Virus record (IMG/VR): IMGVR_UViG_3300037189_003543
Coordinates: 1 to 34,733 of that record
Strand: one strand, 5' to 3'
DNA: 34,733 bases
Origin: a virus
Under the pieces are notes generated by a model that was not told the DNA's origin, did no database searches, and worked only from the letters and a program-made list of their open reading frames with translations. Positions 9,523-17,274 of this stretch are shown one piece after another. Numbering within the stretch: position 1 is the first letter of the stretch; each line of letters starts with the position of its first letter. Both the position numbers and the translations under genes were made by a program.

Positions 9523-11118
9523 GTGGCGCTAAACACGCTCAATCACAATTACGGTCAACCCCTTGTAGTTAGCTCACTAAATGTAACGGGTAACGAGGTC
9601 ATTGACGGTAACACTACCGTCCTTGGCTCCGCTACCCTTGCATCAGCATCTATTGGAGCGGTAAGCGCTGTTCAGATTCAGTACCTCAGTACTACTACCA
9701 GCGATATCCAAACACAGTTAAACAACCGTTTAACCCAATCTCAGCTTACCACTGCCTTAACTGCTTATGCTCCTTTGGCTGGTGCTACCTTTACTGGCGC
9801 TATTTCCGCCACCTCATTAACCTTATCCACGACCCCATTGGCTGTGGGCTCAGGTGGTTCTGGATTAAGCGCAACCACTAAGGGCGGGCTCTTTGTAGGC
9901 ACCTCAACTTCAGCCTTTACAAACTTACCTGTAGGAACAGACACCTATCTATTAACCGCCGACAGCTCACAGACTTCAGGTGTTAAGTGGGCAGCCGCTC
10001 CAGTTAGCTTGCCGTCACAGACAGGTCAATCTGGAAACTACCTAACTACCAATGGAACTACTGCTTCTTGGGCAACTATTCAAGCGCTTCCAACTCAAAC
10101 AGGTAACAACGGAAACTTCTTAACAACCAACGGAACCTCCGCCTCTTGGGCGACTCTTACCGCCTCTAACCTATCTGGTGGAACTCTATCCTCAACCATC
10201 TTAGGTAACTCTACCGTCTATATTGGTAGCACAGCGGTAGCCCTTAACCGCTCTTCAGCCAACCTTGCGCTTACGGGTATTACAAGCGTGGCATTCCCAG
10301 GCTCTACGTCTGGAACTATCACAGTACAAGCCGCAGCAACCGCGGGTACTAATACAATTACTCTTCCCGCTGCTACTGGAACAGTTGACCTACAAGGTAA
10401 TACTTTCTATGTGGGCACCACCCAGATTGCTAATAACCGTGCCTCAGCTTCCCAAACCCTTACTGGCGTTAGTATTGACGGTAACGCTGCTACAGCTACC
10501 TCAGCTACTACAGCTGGCTCTGTAACCAACGGGCTTACCACCTCTAACTACAGCTCCTATGCTTTGCCACTTTCTGGTGGAACTCTTACTGGTCTACTTA
10601 TTGGTAAAACCAATACGGGTGGTACTCTTTTTAATAGCTTAGATACTGGAAGCTTCTCTGTGCGTGGAGATAACTCCAACGCATGTGCTATATCGTTCCA
10701 TCGACCAGGTAACTATGCAATCCAAATGGGTCTTGATACGGATAACGTATTTAAAATTGGCGGTTGGTCAGCTAGCCAAAACATCTTTAACCTAAGCGGT
10801 GGTGGTAACTTAACGCTTGGTGGAACTCTTACCATTAACTCGGATAGGCGCCTTAAGAGCAACATCACCAAGATTGAAAACGCCTTGGATAAGGTTAACG
10901 CTATCTCTGGCTACACCTTTGACCACAACGGTGAGCGTGAAGCTGGAGTTATTGCTCAGGAAGTTCTTGAGGTTCTTCCAGAGGTAGTTCGTACTAACCC
11001 AGAAGGCATGCACACAGTTGCTTACCAGAACATGATTGGGCTACTCATCGAGGCAGTTAAAGAGCAGTCTGCTAAGATTGCTTCTCTTGAGGAGCAAGTA
11101 AAAGAATTAAAGGATTAA
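9523..11118 (+). CDS. Tail fibre/spike with C-terminal S74 intramolecular chaperone
   Basis: This encodes 531 residues from GTG 9523, with a strong site AAGGAGG at 9510-9516. A repetitive Thr/Ser/Gly shaft includes two tandem LP-QTG--GN-LTTNGT--SWAT units near residues 165-210. A domain with AIQMGLDTDNVFKIGGWSAS precedes the chaperone. Residues 440-531 are a Peptidase S74 domain: SDRRLKSNI, then GVIAQEVLEVLPEVV, then a terminal amphipathic helix KIASLEEQVKELKD. In known members the domain trimerises the fibre and cuts itself off before the Ser of SDxRLK, here Ser440 (codon 10840-10842). The mature fibre would thus be about 439 residues. It is followed within three bases by three small tip-like genes. 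Confidence 0.85.
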   Translation: MALNTLNHNYGQPLVVSSLNVTGNEVIDGNTTVLGSATLASASIGAVSAVQIQYLSTTTSDIQTQLNNRLTQSQLTTALTAYAPLAGATFTGAISATSLTLSTTPLAVGSGGSGLSATTKGGLFVGTSTSAFTNLPVGTDTYLLTADSSQTSGVKWAAAPVSLPSQTGQSGNYLTTNGTTASWATIQALPTQTGNNGNFLTTNGTSASWATLTASNLSGGTLSSTILGNSTVYIGSTAVALNRSSANLALTGITSVAFPGSTSGTITVQAAATAGTNTITLPAATGTVDLQGNTFYVGTTQIANNRASASQTLTGVSIDGNAATATSATTAGSVTNGLTTSNYSSYALPLSGGTLTGLLIGKTNTGGTLFNSLDTGSFSVRGDNSNACAISFHRPGNYAIQMGLDTDNVFKIGGWSASQNIFNLSGGGNLTLGGTLTINSDRRLKSNITKIENALDKVNAISGYTFDHNGEREAGVIAQEVLEVLPEVVRTNPEGMHTVAYQNMIGLLIEAVKEQSAKIASLEEQVKELKD

Positions 11119-11121
11119 CAC

Positions 11122-11544
11122 ATGACTACTACTATCGACGGTACAAACGTATACTTCTTTGATGGCACCTCTTTTAATGGAAACTACCCAAGCGGAGTTA
11201 TTACGGTAGACACCAACACGTCAGAATTTACTGGAAGTTATGCAATAGGTGCTTTGCTGTTTGCTGTTAACTTTTTTTATGCTGGAAACTTTCCAGGAGG
11301 ACCTAGTGCGTCTCCATTAAGTCAATGGCAATTGAATACTACAAGCCCTTCATACACATATAATGGGCTTGTGGCAGCAAGCCAATACTATGGCGGAAGT
11401 ACCCAGTACCTAGACCCTAAAATGGTATTTACAAATGGCGGGTCTGGGGTAGGTTTATCTGGAACTTGGAAAGCTAGGGGAAACCCAGTTAATAAGGGAG
11501 CACAGTATCTTTTGAATATTACTATGATTGAGAGGGTTGCATAA
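11122..11544 (+). CDS. Small tip-like protein, tandem copy 1
   Basis: A 140-residue protein, first of three related neighbours. It begins TTTIDGTNVYFFDGTSFNGN, a pattern (I-G--I-F-DGT) seen at starts of phage fibre domains, and ends with LSGTWKARG...LLNITMIERVA. A GTW-(A/C)-G plus final RVA/RIA ending is typical of phage fibre tips. The middle is aromatic and Gly/Ser-rich (YYGGSTQYLDP). No signal peptide or membrane span is seen. Its stop TAA shares bases with the next ATG (TAATG), so translation is probably coupled. Function as a receptor-binding or fibre-tip subunit is inferred from the ending and the position after the S74 fibre. Confidence 0.65.
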   Translation: MTTTIDGTNVYFFDGTSFNGNYPSGVITVDTNTSEFTGSYAIGALLFAVNFFYAGNFPGGPSASPLSQWQLNTTSPSYTYNGLVAASQYYGGSTQYLDPKMVFTNGGSGVGLSGTWKARGNPVNKGAQYLLNITMIERVA

Positions 11545-11984
11545 TGACTACCACCTTATCTGGAACAACACTTACTTTTTCAAGCGGAACAACTTGGACA
11601 ACCAAACCATCATACTCAAACGTAGGTGGTACCTACTGGAGTAGCTATGGTCTAGGTTCTTACGTTATGGTGAACCAACTAAACCCAAAAGTTACCCTGT
11701 CGTATCTAAACAACACACCCCTTGTTAATGGCGTTGGTGCTTACATTATCCCTTGGCCTTCCAATTACTACCCATATGCTGCAAACTATGGGCCTTACAC
11801 AGGAGCGTCTAACTACAACACGGTTAGCGGTTTTATTACATCCACTTCTAGCGCAGTAAACTTTCCAACAACTAACACCAATTACTATGCTTTAGCTGGT
11901 ACGTGGAGAGCAGCTGGCTGGGCTGGTGATGGAGCGGATACAGACTTCCAGTACTTCTACCTATTATTTAGGAGAGTGGCATGA
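11544..11984 (+). CDS. Small tip-like protein, tandem copy 2
   Basis: A 146-residue relative of its two neighbours. The N-terminus TTTLSGTTLTFSSGTTWTT aligns with copy 1, and the C-terminus LAGTWRAAGWAG...YLLFRRVA aligns with both. The central part is rich in Tyr, Asn and Pro (IIPWPSNYYPYAANYGPYTG) and differs almost completely from copies 1 and 3. Such a pattern, with conserved ends and a variable aromatic middle, is what receptor-binding surfaces often show. It overlaps copy 1 at TAATG and copy 3 at ATGA. Confidence 0.65.
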   Translation: MTTTLSGTTLTFSSGTTWTTKPSYSNVGGTYWSSYGLGSYVMVNQLNPKVTLSYLNNTPLVNGVGAYIIPWPSNYYPYAANYGPYTGASNYNTVSGFITSTSSAVNFPTTNTNYYALAGTWRAAGWAGDGADTDFQYFYLLFRRVA

Positions 11985-12331
11985 CCCTAACAGTCGACTC
12001 AGTAAACATATACTTTCCTGATGGAAGCTACCAAAACAATGGGCAGTTTCGCTCCCTTGACGGAAATACCTACGCATTGGCTACATCCTATAACATAGGA
12101 ACCTACATGTTAATGGACATGCAATATCACTTTAACCCGACAAACCCAATACCATTGGATAGCTGGTCAAATACAGGAACTGGATTAAACCCAGCTGCCC
12201 CGTACTATACTGGTAGTAACTATCCTCAAGTATGGAGGCCTGCTTCCAGCAACCCTGGTAACATTCTTAGTGGTACGTGGGTATCAAGAGGCTCAAGTCT
12301 TTTTCAAGCTTTAATCGTAAGAACAGCATAG
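11981..12331 (+). CDS. Small tip-like protein, tandem copy 3
   Basis: The shortest copy, 116 residues, starts at ATG 11981 inside the end of copy 2 (ATGA overlap). It begins LTVDSVNIYFPDGSYQNNGQ and ends LSGTWVSRGSSLFQALIVRTA, matching the ends of its neighbours. The middle has MLMDMQYHFNPTNPIPLDSW, resembling the FPGG..PLSQWQ region of copy 1, so copies 1 and 3 may be closer to each other than to copy 2. It is followed nine bases later by the assembly chaperone gene. Confidence 0.65.
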   Translation: MTLTVDSVNIYFPDGSYQNNGQFRSLDGNTYALATSYNIGTYMLMDMQYHFNPTNPIPLDSWSNTGTGLNPAAPYYTGSNYPQVWRPASSNPGNILSGTWVSRGSSLFQALIVRTA

Positions 12332-12340
12332 GAGAATAAA

Positions 12341-12796
12341 ATGGAAACAATCGGCGGCATCTCTATCGGCAATGTTAGAGAACCTAAGCGTCTAATCCCT
12401 GGTTCAGACCAGGCTTTTCAATGTGTGGTAGACCTTCAGCTACCTGGTGGTCAACTAGAAACTCACCCTTATGTGGCGAACAAAGACGACCATGTGCCAA
12501 CAGGGCAGTATGTTTACCAGCAAATCATTAGTGGGGAGGCTGGCGAAATCGTAGATTACGTGATGCCTGTACCTAGTGAAGAGGATTTAGCAGCTGGGGT
12601 ACGTCAGCACAGAAAGATAGTATTAGCGCAGTTAGACGCCGTAGTCACTAACCCCCTTCGTTGGGCAGAGGTAACGGAAGAGCAGAAGGCTGAGGTCGCA
12701 GCATTTCGCAAGGCTCTGCTAGATGTGCCTCAACAAGAGGGCTTTCCTACTGATATAGTATGGCCTGAAGCACCTGCCTACTTAGGTATACAATAA
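12341..12796 (+). CDS. Probable tail fibre assembly chaperone
   Basis: This 151-residue protein starts at ATG 12341 after TAGGAGAATAAA. The N-terminal half has a short beta-type region with HPYVANKDDHVPTGQYVYQQ. The C-terminal half carries the tail-assembly-chaperone pattern: LDAVVTNPLRWAEVTEEQKAE, then FRKALLDVPQQEGFP and VWPEAPAYLG (residues about 98-151). Proteins with this ending are small helpers encoded next to fibre genes and aid folding or attachment of fibres. Position directly after the three tip-like genes supports a client relationship with them or with the S74 fibre. Confidence 0.7.
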   Translation: METIGGISIGNVREPKRLIPGSDQAFQCVVDLQLPGGQLETHPYVANKDDHVPTGQYVYQQIISGEAGEIVDYVMPVPSEEDLAAGVRQHRKIVLAQLDAVVTNPLRWAEVTEEQKAEVAAFRKALLDVPQQEGFPTDIVWPEAPAYLGIQ

Positions 12797-12815: not shown

Positions 12816-13112
12816 ATGTCAGACGATACAATCCCACACGTCCATGAAGATGGCGTAGAGCACACCCACGATGAAGCGCCTAAGCCTCTCTCAGGCTTTG
12901 CGGTACTTATCTCCCCAGACGGCGGAGTATTTATCGAGCGTAACCCATCTATTCTCAGCGTTGAAGTACAGCGTGAAGCATCTCTAGTAGAGGTCCGACG
13001 CGCTTGCTCAGACATCGTTATGGACCTTCAGGCCCAGACAGCAGCTGAGTACACAGTACTTCGCCTTAACGCGCTAAACACGCCAAGAGAAGAAGTAGCC
13101 CCACAAGCTTAG
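12816..13112 (+). CDS. Small protein of unknown function with His-rich start
   Basis: This encodes 98 residues with a good site CTAAGGAG upstream of ATG 12816. Residues 7-19 are His/Asp/Glu-rich (IPHVHEDGVEHTHDE), giving two HxH pairs that could bind a metal ion. The rest has a beta segment, FAVLISPDGGVFIERNP, and an amphipathic helix region around VEVRRACSDIVMDLQAQTAA. The family was not recognised. It lies between the fibre chaperone and connector-type genes, so a minor virion or assembly role is plausible but unproven. Confidence 0.55.
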   Translation: MSDDTIPHVHEDGVEHTHDEAPKPLSGFAVLISPDGGVFIERNPSILSVEVQREASLVEVRRACSDIVMDLQAQTAAEYTVLRLNALNTPREEVAPQA

Positions 13113-13127
13113 TAAGGAAGGTCTGGC

Positions 13128-13649
13128 ATGAAGTCCTATGGTCCTGGTGGCAGGTTTGATGCCGACTTTGAAACAAATGAAATCCTAAGTGGCATGAACG
13201 CCGACTTGAGAAATCCAGTCGGTACTCATGCCCTTTGGTATATCTTTGATAAAAACGACACGGTAGTAGACCCTATCTATGACGTAGCCTTTGCCCCTAG
13301 CCGCCATGCAGGTGGGCGCGAGTGGGCTGGCCCATACACGATTCAGGTTGTCAGGGCTGTCATCAAGCAAGGCGACTCTGGAATCTCCCAGGCTGGTTTC
13401 TACAACTCAGATACCCTGCATCTCACCCTTAACTCAGACGACATCGAAGCCATCTCCCCAGGTACCATGGCTAACCCAGACTTCCAGGATAGAAGCCGTA
13501 TTATCTGGAAGGGCGAAGTTTGGCGCCCATACAACGCTCAGCAACTAGGAATCATAGGCGAGCGCTATACTTTATTATCAGTTGACTGCAAGCAGGTTAT
13601 GCCTGACGAGATGGTTAACGACCCACAGTTTGAACAATACGCCAACTAA
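13128..13649 (+). CDS. Putative head-tail connector/stopper protein
   Basis: This encodes 173 residues, ATG 13128 preceded by AAGGAAGG. It is soluble, mixed beta, with IWKGEVWRPYNAQQLGIIGE and TLLSVDCKQVMPDEMV near the end. A beta-barrel that ends in a W-P-----G-----Y-LL pattern recalls head-closure (stopper) proteins, which often carry a 'W-V------G-----' strand. Position upstream of the terminator/sheath/tube block agrees. No signature residue settles it, and a generic structural protein is the alternative. Confidence 0.45.
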   Translation: MKSYGPGGRFDADFETNEILSGMNADLRNPVGTHALWYIFDKNDTVVDPIYDVAFAPSRHAGGREWAGPYTIQVVRAVIKQGDSGISQAGFYNSDTLHLTLNSDDIEAISPGTMANPDFQDRSRIIWKGEVWRPYNAQQLGIIGERYTLLSVDCKQVMPDEMVNDPQFEQYAN

Positions 13650-13658
13650 GGAGACCTC

Positions 13659-13955
13659 ATGGCAATTGTACACGATAGCTTTGCATTAGCGGCTGCCACA
13701 CCTACCATTATTGCAACAATCCCAGCGGGAAACCCTACAACCGTTGTGACGGTCACTAACGTAAACGCTGGCTCAGTGTTCATTGGTGACTCCTCTGTGG
13801 CTACGGGTAATACTGTTGACCGCGGCCTTAGAATTGCGACTAACGCAACTCAGCAGGTGTCGTTAAACGCTGGGGATGTGCTTTATGCCATTTCTCTTGC
13901 TGGAACCTCATCTTCCTATGACGTAACCGTTCTTTACTCTAAGGTAGTCGCGTAG
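13659..13955 (+). CDS. Small beta-rich virion-type protein
   Basis: This encodes 98 residues starting after TAAGGAGACCTC. The sequence is nearly all beta: TVVTVTNVNAGSVFIGDSSV, then VSLNAGDVLYAISLAG, then YDVTVLYSK. Short proteins with V-VTN----VFIG-S-V and GD-LYAI are frequent in phage structural regions and form one small sandwich domain, perhaps a decoration or cap. It ends TAG, whose G begins the GTG of the next microgene. Confidence 0.5.
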   Translation: MAIVHDSFALAAATPTIIATIPAGNPTTVVTVTNVNAGSVFIGDSSVATGNTVDRGLRIATNATQQVSLNAGDVLYAISLAGTSSSYDVTVLYSKVVA

Positions 13956-14098
13956 TGCCTTTCAAGTCACAGTCTCAGCGTAAGTTTATGTACTCGCAGC
14001 ACCCAGAGATGGCTAAGGAGTGGGAAGACAAAACCCCTAAAGGGAAGAAGCTTCCTAACAAAGTAAAGAAAACCACCAAGAAGAAGGCAGGTAAGTAA
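13955..14098 (+). CDS. Lys-rich microprotein (47 aa), MPFKSQSQRKFMY family
   Basis: A 47-residue frame from GTG 13955, overlapping the TAG of the previous gene by one base. The protein begins MPFKSQSQRKFMYSQHPEMA, then KEWEDKTP-GKKLP, and ends in a Lys-rich tail. MPFKS-AQ--FM---HP--AK-W is a recurrent microprotein in many tailed phages, usually near head or tail genes, with no settled function. The strong basic charge suggests binding to nucleic acid or an acidic protein. Confidence 0.65.
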   Translation: MPFKSQSQRKFMYSQHPEMAKEWEDKTPKGKKLPNKVKKTTKKKAGK

Positions 14099-14099
14099 T

Positions 14100-14246
14100 A
14101 TGTGCGCTACGTGCGGATGTATGGGCAAGAAGTCTAAGAAGAAGATGTCCCCAAAGCAACAGAAACTTGCTGGTGCAGCTTCTCCTAAAGGTAAGATAAC
14201 TGGAGCCGACTTCAAGGCCCTTAAGAAGAAAGCAGGTAAGAAGTAA
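14100..14246 (+). CDS. Cys/Lys microprotein (48 aa), first of a pair
   Basis: A 48-residue frame from ATG 14100, one base after the previous stop. It begins MCATCGCMGKKSKKKMSPKQ, with Cys2, Cys5 and Cys7, and ends GADFKALKKKAGKK. Its stop TAA shares its last A with the ATG of the next gene (TAATG). The N-terminal Cys cluster plus basic tail is shared with the downstream gene, suggesting duplication. Metal binding is possible but three Cys alone would need a partner or dimer. Confidence 0.6.
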   Translation: MCATCGCMGKKSKKKMSPKQQKLAGAASPKGKITGADFKALKKKAGKK

Positions 14247-14464
14247 TGTGTAAGTCATGTGGATGTGGCTGCTCAAAGCCAAACTGTAACGGCGCTTGCA
14301 AGAAGGCCGATAAAAAGCAGGATAAAAAGCTTGAAAAGGGCATGACCCCAGCTCAGAAGAAGAAGTTTGAAGCTGCGGACAAGAAGATGGATAAGAAGAA
14401 GCCATCTCGTGCCGAAGATAAGAAGATGGACAAGGCCTTAGCCAAGAAGGTCAAAAAGAAGTAA
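14246..14464 (+). CDS. Cys-cluster Lys-rich small protein (72 aa), second of a pair
   Basis: This encodes 72 residues. Six Cys lie in the first 18 residues (2, 5, 7, 9, 14, 18; MCKSCGCGCSKPNCNGAC), a metallothionein-like spacing. The rest is extremely rich in Lys with alternating Asp/Glu (KKADKKQDKKLEKG, KKMDKKKPSRAEDKKMDKA). It is likely an unstructured or single-helix basic tail. It overlaps the preceding Cys/Lys gene and is closed by a terminator 8 bases downstream. The function is unknown; metal storage, DNA condensation or a packaged basic protein are conceivable. Confidence 0.65.
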   Translation: MCKSCGCGCSKPNCNGACKKADKKQDKKLEKGMTPAQKKKFEAADKKMDKKKPSRAEDKKMDKALAKKVKKK

Positions 14465-14472
14465 CCATTAAG

Positions 14473-14492
14473 CCCCCGCAAGGGGGTTTTTT
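14473..14492 (+). terminator. Strong intrinsic terminator
   Basis: Stem CCCCC (14473-14477) pairs with GGGGG (14482-14486) around a GCAA tetraloop, with further A-T/G-T pairs possible at the base. A run of six T follows at 14487-14492. This is the clearest intrinsic terminator in the window and closes the small-gene cassette. The 77 bases from here to the next start hold an inverted repeat and a TATGAT hexamer but no convincing -35 box. Confidence 0.9.
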
Positions 14493-14507
14493 GCTTTATG
14501 ATTTAAT

Positions 14508-14526
14508 TAGTTCCATGCGGGAACTA
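14508..14526. promoter_or_regulatory. Perfect 7-bp inverted repeat in a leader region
   Basis: TAGTTCC (14508-14514) and GGAACTA (14520-14526) flank ATGCG. The repeat lies between the strong terminator and the start at 14570, in one of the few intergenic gaps of the window. TATGAT at 14497-14502 could be a -10 element; the bases about 17 upstream fall in the terminator stem and look nothing like a -35. An operator, a small RNA hairpin, or chance are all possible. Confidence 0.35.
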
Positions 14527-14569
14527 CAGCTACACCCCTTGCGAAGTACACTGCCTTAGGAGATTTGCC

Positions 14570-14719
14570 ATGTCTGATAATGTAGATAGACCCACAGAGG
14601 CTGACTTCGCTAAAGAGATTGCGAAGCATCTTAGTACGCAAGACAAAGATAAGCTTGTAGATATCGTGGGCGCGGCATACCTAGCGGGTAAAGTGTATAA
14701 GAATGTCCTCAAGCGCTAA
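14570..14719 (+). CDS. Small helical protein of unknown function (49 aa)
   Basis: A 49-residue frame from ATG 14570 with TTAGGAG upstream at good spacing. It begins MSDNVDRPTEADFAKEIAKH and ends LAGKVYKNVLKR. It is acidic at the start, basic at the end and probably all helical. The stop lies 17 bases inside the next gene, whose ATG is at 14703, a strong overlap that suggests coupled translation. It is first after the terminator, so it leads the neck/tail transcript. No family was recognised. Confidence 0.6.
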   Translation: MSDNVDRPTEADFAKEIAKHLSTQDKDKLVDIVGAAYLAGKVYKNVLKR

Positions 14720-15702: not shown

Positions 15703-17274
15703 ATGGCATTTTCCCGTCCTGGGGTGTACGTTCAAGAGACGCTGACCCCAACACAGCAAACGCCTGGACCAGCTTCCGACTCAGTAGCAGCCTTCATCGG
15801 CGCTAATGACAAGGGCCCAGTTGTTCCTACGCTTGTTACTTCTTGGAGCCAGTATGTAAATCTATTTGGTTCTTGGAACACATCTGCTCCTAACGACCTT
15901 CCAATTGCCCTATGGCAGTTCTTCACCAACGGTGGTCGTCAGGCTTATGTACTTCGTGTTGTTACTACAGGTGACTCAACACCTTCTAACAATGCAACTG
16001 CTGCTGCCCGTATCCTGCAGGACCGCGCAGGAACACCAGTCAACACCCTTTCTCTAACAGCTATTAACCCAGGTACTTGGGGCAACCAGATTAACGTAAC
16101 TGTTACTGATGCGCCAACAACTGGTTACTTTAACCTCACCGTTTACAACGGTGGGACAACAGACGCTTACATTGTAGAGCGCTTCACAGACATCTCAATG
16201 GTGACTACTGATGCCCGTTACTCTGTAAACGTTATCAACGCTAGCTCTTCTTATCTTATTGCGGCTGATGGTGGCTCTTCATCTTCAGGCGCAACAAAGA
16301 ACCCAGCTTTGACAGTAGTTAACTTCTACTTATCAGGTGGGCTCAACGGATACGCTATCGGTACTGCAGCAATCCAGGCAAAGCTAAGCACATCTGGTAC
16401 TTCCCCATTTGATGTCATTAGCCAGTCTCTTATCCTCAACATCCCTAACTACACAGATACCAACACTGTTAATGCAGCTTTAGCTTATGCTGCTAACCGT
16501 CAAGACGTCTTTGTTGTTATTGACCCAGTTGCAGGAGCCGCAGTAGGCCCAGTTGGTACCTCTGGAACTGAGCTTTACACAGCTGCTACATACGGAACTA
16601 GCACAACTGGTTCATATGGAGCTGTCTACTACCCACAAGTTACCATTGCTGACCCAACCCTTGGTCTAGGTTCTGCATCTGGAGCTACTAAGACTGTTGC
16701 TCCTGGAGGAGCTATCATCGGTCTTTACGCTTCTACAGACGCATCTCGTGGAGTCTTCAAGGCCCCAGCTGGTATCCAAACACGTCTTGCTGGTGTTGTC
16801 TCAGTTACACCACTGTCAAGCACAGACCTTGATTCTCTAAATACATCGTCTGTACCTGTAAACGCTATTAAGTACGTTCCAGGTTCAGGCATTGTAGTTA
16901 TGGGCGCTCGCACACTTAAGTCAGGTTATATCGACCGTTATGTACCAGTGCGTCGTACCCTTATCTACTTGGAGAAGTCACTTAAGGACCTAAGCCAGTT
17001 TGCAATCTTTGAGCCAAACGATGCTGCTCTATGGCGCCGTTTGAACTCAACTTTGTCAAGCTTCCTTACTAACTTCTGGTCTCAAGGTGGGTTAAATGGA
17101 GCTACACCTGCACAGGCATTCTATGTAAAGGTTGACTCAACTAATAACCCACAGGCTTCCATTGACAATGGAGAAGTGCACATTGAAGTTGGCGTTGCTC
17201 TACAGCGTCCAGCCGAATATGTAGTCATCAAAATCGGTCAGTTTAACGGTAGCACGACCGTTACTGTAGCGTAA
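15703..17274 (+). CDS. Contractile tail sheath protein
   Basis: This encodes 523 residues from ATG 15703 after TTAAGGAGATAA. The N-terminus FSRPGVYVQETL is the standard sheath opening; VAAFIGANDKGP and GGRQAYVLRVV follow. The C-terminal domain has YVPVRRTLIYLEKSLKDLSQ, FAIFEPND, LWRRLNSTLSSFL and AEYVVIKIGQF, the conserved region that forms the sheath inner layer and handshake strands. It polymerises around the tube and contracts at infection. The length is usual for compact sheaths (T4 gp18 is about 659). It is co-transcribed with the tube gene 15 bases downstream. Confidence 0.95.
   Translation: MAFSRPGVYVQETLTPTQQTPGPASDSVAAFIGANDKGPVVPTLVTSWSQYVNLFGSWNTSAPNDLPIALWQFFTNGGRQAYVLRVVTTGDSTPSNNATAAARILQDRAGTPVNTLSLTAINPGTWGNQINVTVTDAPTTGYFNLTVYNGGTTDAYIVERFTDISMVTTDARYSVNVINASSSYLIAADGGSSSSGATKNPALTVVNFYLSGGLNGYAIGTAAIQAKLSTSGTSPFDVISQSLILNIPNYTDTNTVNAALAYAANRQDVFVVIDPVAGAAVGPVGTSGTELYTAATYGTSTTGSYGAVYYPQVTIADPTLGLGSASGATKTVAPGGAIIGLYASTDASRGVFKAPAGIQTRLAGVVSVTPLSSTDLDSLNTSSVPVNAIKYVPGSGIVVMGARTLKSGYIDRYVPVRRTLIYLEKSLKDLSQFAIFEPNDAALWRRLNSTLSSFLTNFWSQGGLNGATPAQAFYVKVDSTNNPQASIDNGEVHIEVGVALQRPAEYVVIKIGQFNGSTTVTVA

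Follow-up and report, generated by a model that had tools for sequence, protein, structure and literature searches.

Why should one phage tail fibre be followed by three different tip-like genes and a single chaperone? The question is raised at positions 11122–12331 of the window, which spans an entire IMG/VR virus record (34,733 bases) and may be incomplete. The window belongs to a contractile-tailed phage: the protein encoded at 15703–17274 shares about 40% identity with the tail sheaths of BRock and other Streptomyces phages. Phage fibre tips are usually described as homotrimers. The first-pass annotation of this DNA had read the three genes as a set of interchangeable or co-assembled receptor-binding subunits, and possibly as a host-range cassette.

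Three overlapping paralogues between a fibre and a chaperone

The gene upstream of the trio (9523–11118, plus strand) encodes a tail fibre of 531 residues, with a C-terminal S74 intramolecular chaperone/protease domain (PF13884 Peptidase_S74, E = 5e-16) and PHROGs matches to the long tail fibre distal subunit. S74 domains, marked by an SDxxxK motif, act as chaperones for trimeric fibres and cleave themselves (PMC10769870). In the window SDRRLK, following LTLGGTLTIN, is the predicted self-cleavage site, and an SD..LK motif is present in all 16 S74 fibres checked among the cassette loci. Downstream, at 12341–12796 on the plus strand, lies a tail fibre assembly chaperone of the Phage_tail_APC type (151 aa; PF16778, E = 1e-11), one per triplet, which matches PHROG tail fibre assembly families and found no convincing match among solved structures.

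Between these two, all on the plus strand, are gene A (11122–11544, 140 aa), gene B (11544–11984, 146 aa) and gene C (11981–12331, 116 aa). A and B overlap by 1 nt (TAATG) and B and C by 4 nt (ATGA), and a conserved Shine-Dalgarno sequence of gene C, AGGAG, sits within the 3′ end of B. A further ORF of 72 residues, at 14246–14464 (plus strand), is rich in Cys at its start (MCKSCGCGCSKPNC) and in Lys and Asp thereafter; it is kept beside the triplet in one relative (L099, 4906–5124).

A and C recognize each other in BLASTP (E = 9e-10), while B is barely detectable by BLAST against either. Shuffling gave Z-scores of 10.6 (A–C), 5.0 (A–B) and 4.0 (B–C), and a profile of B aligned with the A+C profile over almost its full length (hhalign probability 97.5%, E = 5.5e-12). 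Similarity is above chance, and A, B and C are true paralogues. The three share a short, conserved segment at the N-terminus (MTxTxxGTxxxFxxG) and a conserved C-terminal end ('GTW..RG ... RVA'), and all 36 aligned members end in GTW/GSW/GVW..(R/A)(A/S)G...R(V/I/T)A. The family also shows the end pattern of the tip domain described below (GTW-x(2,3)-G, then 8–40 residues on a terminal R-[IVT]-[SAG]). All three proteins are rich in aromatic residues (FWY 14–18.5%; five other large window proteins have 7.5%). The first-pass description of three adjacent, overlapping, aromatic-rich paralogues with shared ends, flanked by an S74 fibre and a chaperone, was thus confirmed, coordinates and overlaps included.

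The proteins have few relatives in reference collections. A, B and C were without any Pfam match at E up to 1, and PF07484 (phage tail collar) was also absent from a search with a 24-member alignment. Pfam, PHROGs and NCBIfam yielded no credible match to the family; the best PHROG, at E = 0.0067, has no function. A tblastn search of cultured phages with A of the window, one C-type and one A-type member gave no match, two of the position profiles, run over contigs from bacterial and archaeal genomes, gave no relatives, and sequence and fold searches of the PDB found nothing for the family.

Relatives were recovered from viral contigs, which were scanned with the neighbouring 977-residue structural protein and whose loci were then searched with an HMM of the trio; a second scan of viral contigs used profiles of each position. 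The resulting sample consists of 15 IMG/VR contigs, the window among them; about 12 are distinct, and the relatives are metagenomic. Exactly three copies in the order A-B-C were found in 15 of 15 contigs, with the PF16778 chaperone directly after C in every case. The genes overlap by 1 or 4 nt in 12 of 12 loci checked, and the S74 fibre lies directly upstream of A in every cassette contig that extends far enough. S74 fibre, A, B, C and tail-fibre chaperone form an invariant cassette in these contigs. When the chaperone profile was scanned separately, its 14 closest matches were the same 14 contigs, and the contig scans showed no relatives with a close chaperone and another copy number. Two contigs with the same fibre type (L007 and L010) stop within the fibre or some 100 bp past it and are uninformative on the triplet.

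The junction between fibre and A varies. The gap is 3 bp after the window's fibre vs. about 112 bp after that of its closest relative (L006, fibre at 12947–14679), and the two also differ in the neighbourhood of the S74 cleavage site, which suggests that the end of the fibre was exchanged recently.

A C-terminal domain in other phage fibre tips

Direct searches with A, B and C having failed, we used the PF16778-type chaperone as bait in cultured phages. Proteins encoded directly upstream of it share a C-terminal 'GxYxL ... GTWRxMG ... RIS'. This was true for the fibres of Aquamicrobium phage P14 ('AIGQYAF...LPGTWRVLG...LVIRIS') and Roseobacter phage SIO1 ('AVGTYTV...LTGTWRNVG...LWVRIS'), for gp53 of Lentibacter phage ICBM2 (132 aa; 'AVGTYAF...PSGTWRLMG...LWLRIS') and for gp41 of Roseobacter phage CRP-227 (112 aa; 'AVGTYLI...LSGTWRRM...LHVRIS'). 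No Pfam model was found for this domain. An AlphaFold2 model of A, moderate in quality (pLDDT 62, pTM 0.59), matched the tail fibre of Sinorhizobium phage phiM9 (Foldseek probability 1.00, E = 0.013) and A0A6J5SK39 (E = 5e-5); the model of B was unusable (pLDDT 35). The phiM9 fibre, a tail collar domain protein found independently through this fold comparison, ends 'CTGTWRARG...LFQRVG'. An S74 protein is encoded two genes before it, and immediately after it come two small proteins that, in our reading, resemble tail-fibre assembly chaperones. Pa193 gp47 (PDB 9B45) was considered as a tip structure and set aside, as its tip domain by sequence spans residues 880–961 and the paper built only about the first 350.

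We then built an HMM from 57 other tip domains, leaving the triplet proteins out. Among the 4,406 ORFs in the neighbour loci it matched 49, every one a triplet member, so that 49 of the 51 triplet ORFs were recovered. Single-sequence E-values to the tip domain are modest (best 3e-5), profile-profile probabilities of 43–90% come mainly from the last 30 columns, and the homology as a whole rests mainly on the C-terminal 30–50 residues. Given these modest values and short coverage, the argument therefore rests on the exclusivity of the HMM together with gene context. The fibre-tip-like identity first proposed is supported, in that the C-terminal domain resembles tips that cultured phages encode just before a chaperone of this family. 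Very probably, A, B and C are the tip proteins of the S74 fibre.

In other phages the tip domain is either fused to the fibre or has a single gene of its own, which immediately precedes one chaperone. In 50 of 64 other chaperone loci, a simple gene call placed one tip-domain gene immediately before the chaperone, and ORF recall added some of the rest; none of the other chaperone loci surveyed had two adjacent tip genes. In loci with two tips, a separate chaperone follows each of them; the exception is L189, in which the second chaperone was not found. Stand-alone tips of about 94–163 aa are common among the surveyed loci, and two loci (L174 and L171), and probably a third (L172), consist of an S74 fibre, one stand-alone tip and a chaperone. 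A, B and C thus resemble the tips of CRP-227, ICBM2, P14, SIO1 and phiM9 in the C-terminal signature and in their place directly upstream of a chaperone, and the stand-alone tips in their small size (about 100–140 aa). They differ in number, with three diverged paralogues per chaperone in the window in contrast to one copy elsewhere. By these comparisons the triplet is a derived, three-paralogue version of the known tip-plus-chaperone arrangement, in which the tip gene was triplicated and diverged. Units of tip or fibre plus chaperone are repeated side by side in L147 (3633–5130), L156 (3654–5193) and ICBM2 (L120, 2477–4912), so these phages multiply whole units, whereas the window multiplies only the tip.

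A proposed arrangement of three tips on one fibre

How might three tips and one fibre fit together? The trimeric S74 fibre would cleave itself and lose the S74 domain, exposing the end of a trimeric shaft on which a stand-alone tip could dock; a single tip gene would give a homotrimer. With three genes, the single chaperone would aid the folding and 1:1:1 assembly of A, B and C. Their N-terminal segments would dock on the shaft, their conserved ends would form a shared trimer core, and their three different centres would make an asymmetric receptor-binding head. We put the chances that A, B and C form such an A:B:C heterotrimer at about even. A 1:1:1 complex is the simplest reading because three paralogues are co-inherited with one chaperone, and it gains support from the fact that tips pair one to one with chaperones elsewhere, while here three share one. 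That the trio always occurs with an S74 fibre and one chaperone makes plausible the co-assembly that the first-pass annotation had offered as one of two options.

The closest parallel is the virophage DSLV2, whose three collar-domain tail proteins, encoded consecutively, purify together in a complex with the mass of a heterotrimer and are orthologous by position (PMC12724248). The tripartite tail of DSLV2 shares with A, B and C the three consecutive paralogous tip genes, fixed order, positional orthology and sequence divergence. It differs in having the collar domain PF07484, which A, B and C lack, and in belonging to a virophage capsid with no S74 fibre. The DSLV2 trio is reported to be a 1:1:1 heterotrimer. 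A second parallel comes from sister phages. In L019 (11235–13636), L024 (5650–8051) and L049 (13520–15750), three tandem collar-type (PF07484) genes of about 240–285 aa lie directly after the fibre, and of the nine proteins seven have a collar-domain match at E < 0.001, an eighth has a weak match and the ninth has none. Like the window, these phages have three genes in a row at the same site after the fibre and the 977-residue neighbour protein; unlike it, they have larger, collar-domain proteins, and an S74 domain and a PF16778 chaperone were not found in them. The DSLV2 report and the three collar-type genes at this site count in favour of the heterotrimer reading.

Other tailed phages offer partial likenesses. 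In T2/S16/PP01-type phages, gp38 is a separately encoded adhesin at the end of the trimeric gp37 fibre (PMC12892980), as A, B and C would be on theirs, but it is a single gene with glycine-rich motifs around hypervariable segments, whereas the sequences of A, B and C have no poly-glycine blocks. In myocyanophage Pam3, the gp24 fibre and gp25 chaperone form a 3:3 complex (PMC9608196); there, as is proposed here, a phage-encoded chaperone folds the distal part of the fibre, although one fibre gene gives a homotrimer. Anabaena phage A-1(L) was rejected as a precedent, since its 'heterotrimeric' part belongs to the baseplate, as a wedge, and each of its fibres is a trimer of a single protein. Among open-licence papers, none that we found describes a heterotrimer of three paralogues at the fibre tip of a tailed phage.

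The main alternative, which we consider less likely, is that the genes make three separate homotrimeric tips (A3, B3 and C3) on some fibres or at alternative tail positions, giving one virion three receptor specificities. Single-copy tips elsewhere are presumably homotrimeric, some phages such as ICBM2 have several fibre-chaperone units side by side, and tandem arrays of fibre-like paralogues occur in twos, fours and fives in other surveyed phages, so that a count of three alone is no proof of a trimer. Nevertheless, one S74 fibre gene and one chaperone serve all three proteins here, multi-tip phages generally give each tip its own chaperone, and copy number is constant across the 15 contigs even though separate tips should be individually dispensable.

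Tandem arrays of other families were seen in the same survey. Three paralogues of about 400–430 aa directly follow an S74-domain gene in L074 (3204–6959) and L076 (15081–18885). Four overlapping paralogues of 124–128 aa lie directly upstream of the 977-residue homologue in L071 (5056–6582), and about five or six diverged paralogous genes (about 200–290 aa) lie downstream of that homologue in L064, L065, L069, L080 and L085.

Divergence of the three positions

In a tree of 36 proteins, B and C each formed one group (support 100/100 and 100/99), and A was one group in 56% of bootstrap trees, with at most two changes needed. Distances at the three positions co-vary (Mantel r 0.83–0.88, p = 0.0002). 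By these measures each position is a fixed orthologous group, A being near enough one clade, and the three diverge in step, which leaves the idea of interchangeable copies unsupported.

The positions differ in how fast they change. Mean pairwise identity among 12 loci is 52% for A, the most variable, 73% for B, the most conserved, and 63% for C. The centre of A evolves fast (pN/pS 0.22–0.64) and that of B is constrained (0.05–0.21). Among six locus pairs, with three regions per gene, pN/pS was never above 1, and this test found no positive selection on the centres of A, B or C. The conserved ends and variable centre noted at the outset hold between the paralogues and among orthologues of A and of C; the centre of B is strongly conserved among its orthologues, so a variable centre is a property of A and C and not of the whole set. 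The comparison of relatives that had been proposed returned always three copies, with middles variable only in A and C.

Such uneven rates could fit a division of labour, an improbable reading in which one or two of the proteins bind the receptor, most likely A because it is the most variable, B connects them to the shaft, and the three are stacked serially rather than joined in a heterotrimer. B is slow in both its centre and its C-terminus, A and part of C are variable, and the A-B-C gene order could reflect the order of stacking. However, all three carry the same N- and C-terminal signatures, as expected for side-by-side partners, and B has no visible extra attachment domain.

Least probable is that the copies are alternatives recombined or swapped to change host range: conserved ends could aid recombination, the centre of A evolves fastest, and N-terminal similarity is slightly higher within than between loci for A–C only (p = 0.02 over 18 residues, 0.004 over 10; shared ancestry could be its source, and a test for gene conversion between N-termini indicated at most a weak effect), but position swaps and copy-number changes are absent from the 15 contigs, the positions co-diverge, the B centre is conserved and no region suggests positive selection, so that the fixed orthology largely refutes interchangeability and the host-range cassette is not upheld.

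Returning to the heterotrimer, we tentatively propose, at somewhat less than even confidence, an obligate A:B:C tip on the fibre of a contractile-tailed phage that arose by triplication of a tip usually encoded by one gene, the collar-domain tips of sister phages and virophages having converged separately. If this is true, one threefold tip would present three different surfaces, as reported for the virophage (PMC12724248), and the transition from a symmetric fibre to an asymmetric one would become testable. The trio and its chaperone also make a small, convenient system in which to study how tips assemble with a chaperone's help, and the signature GTWRxMG ... RIS beside PF16778 may be used to find the tip domain in other phages.
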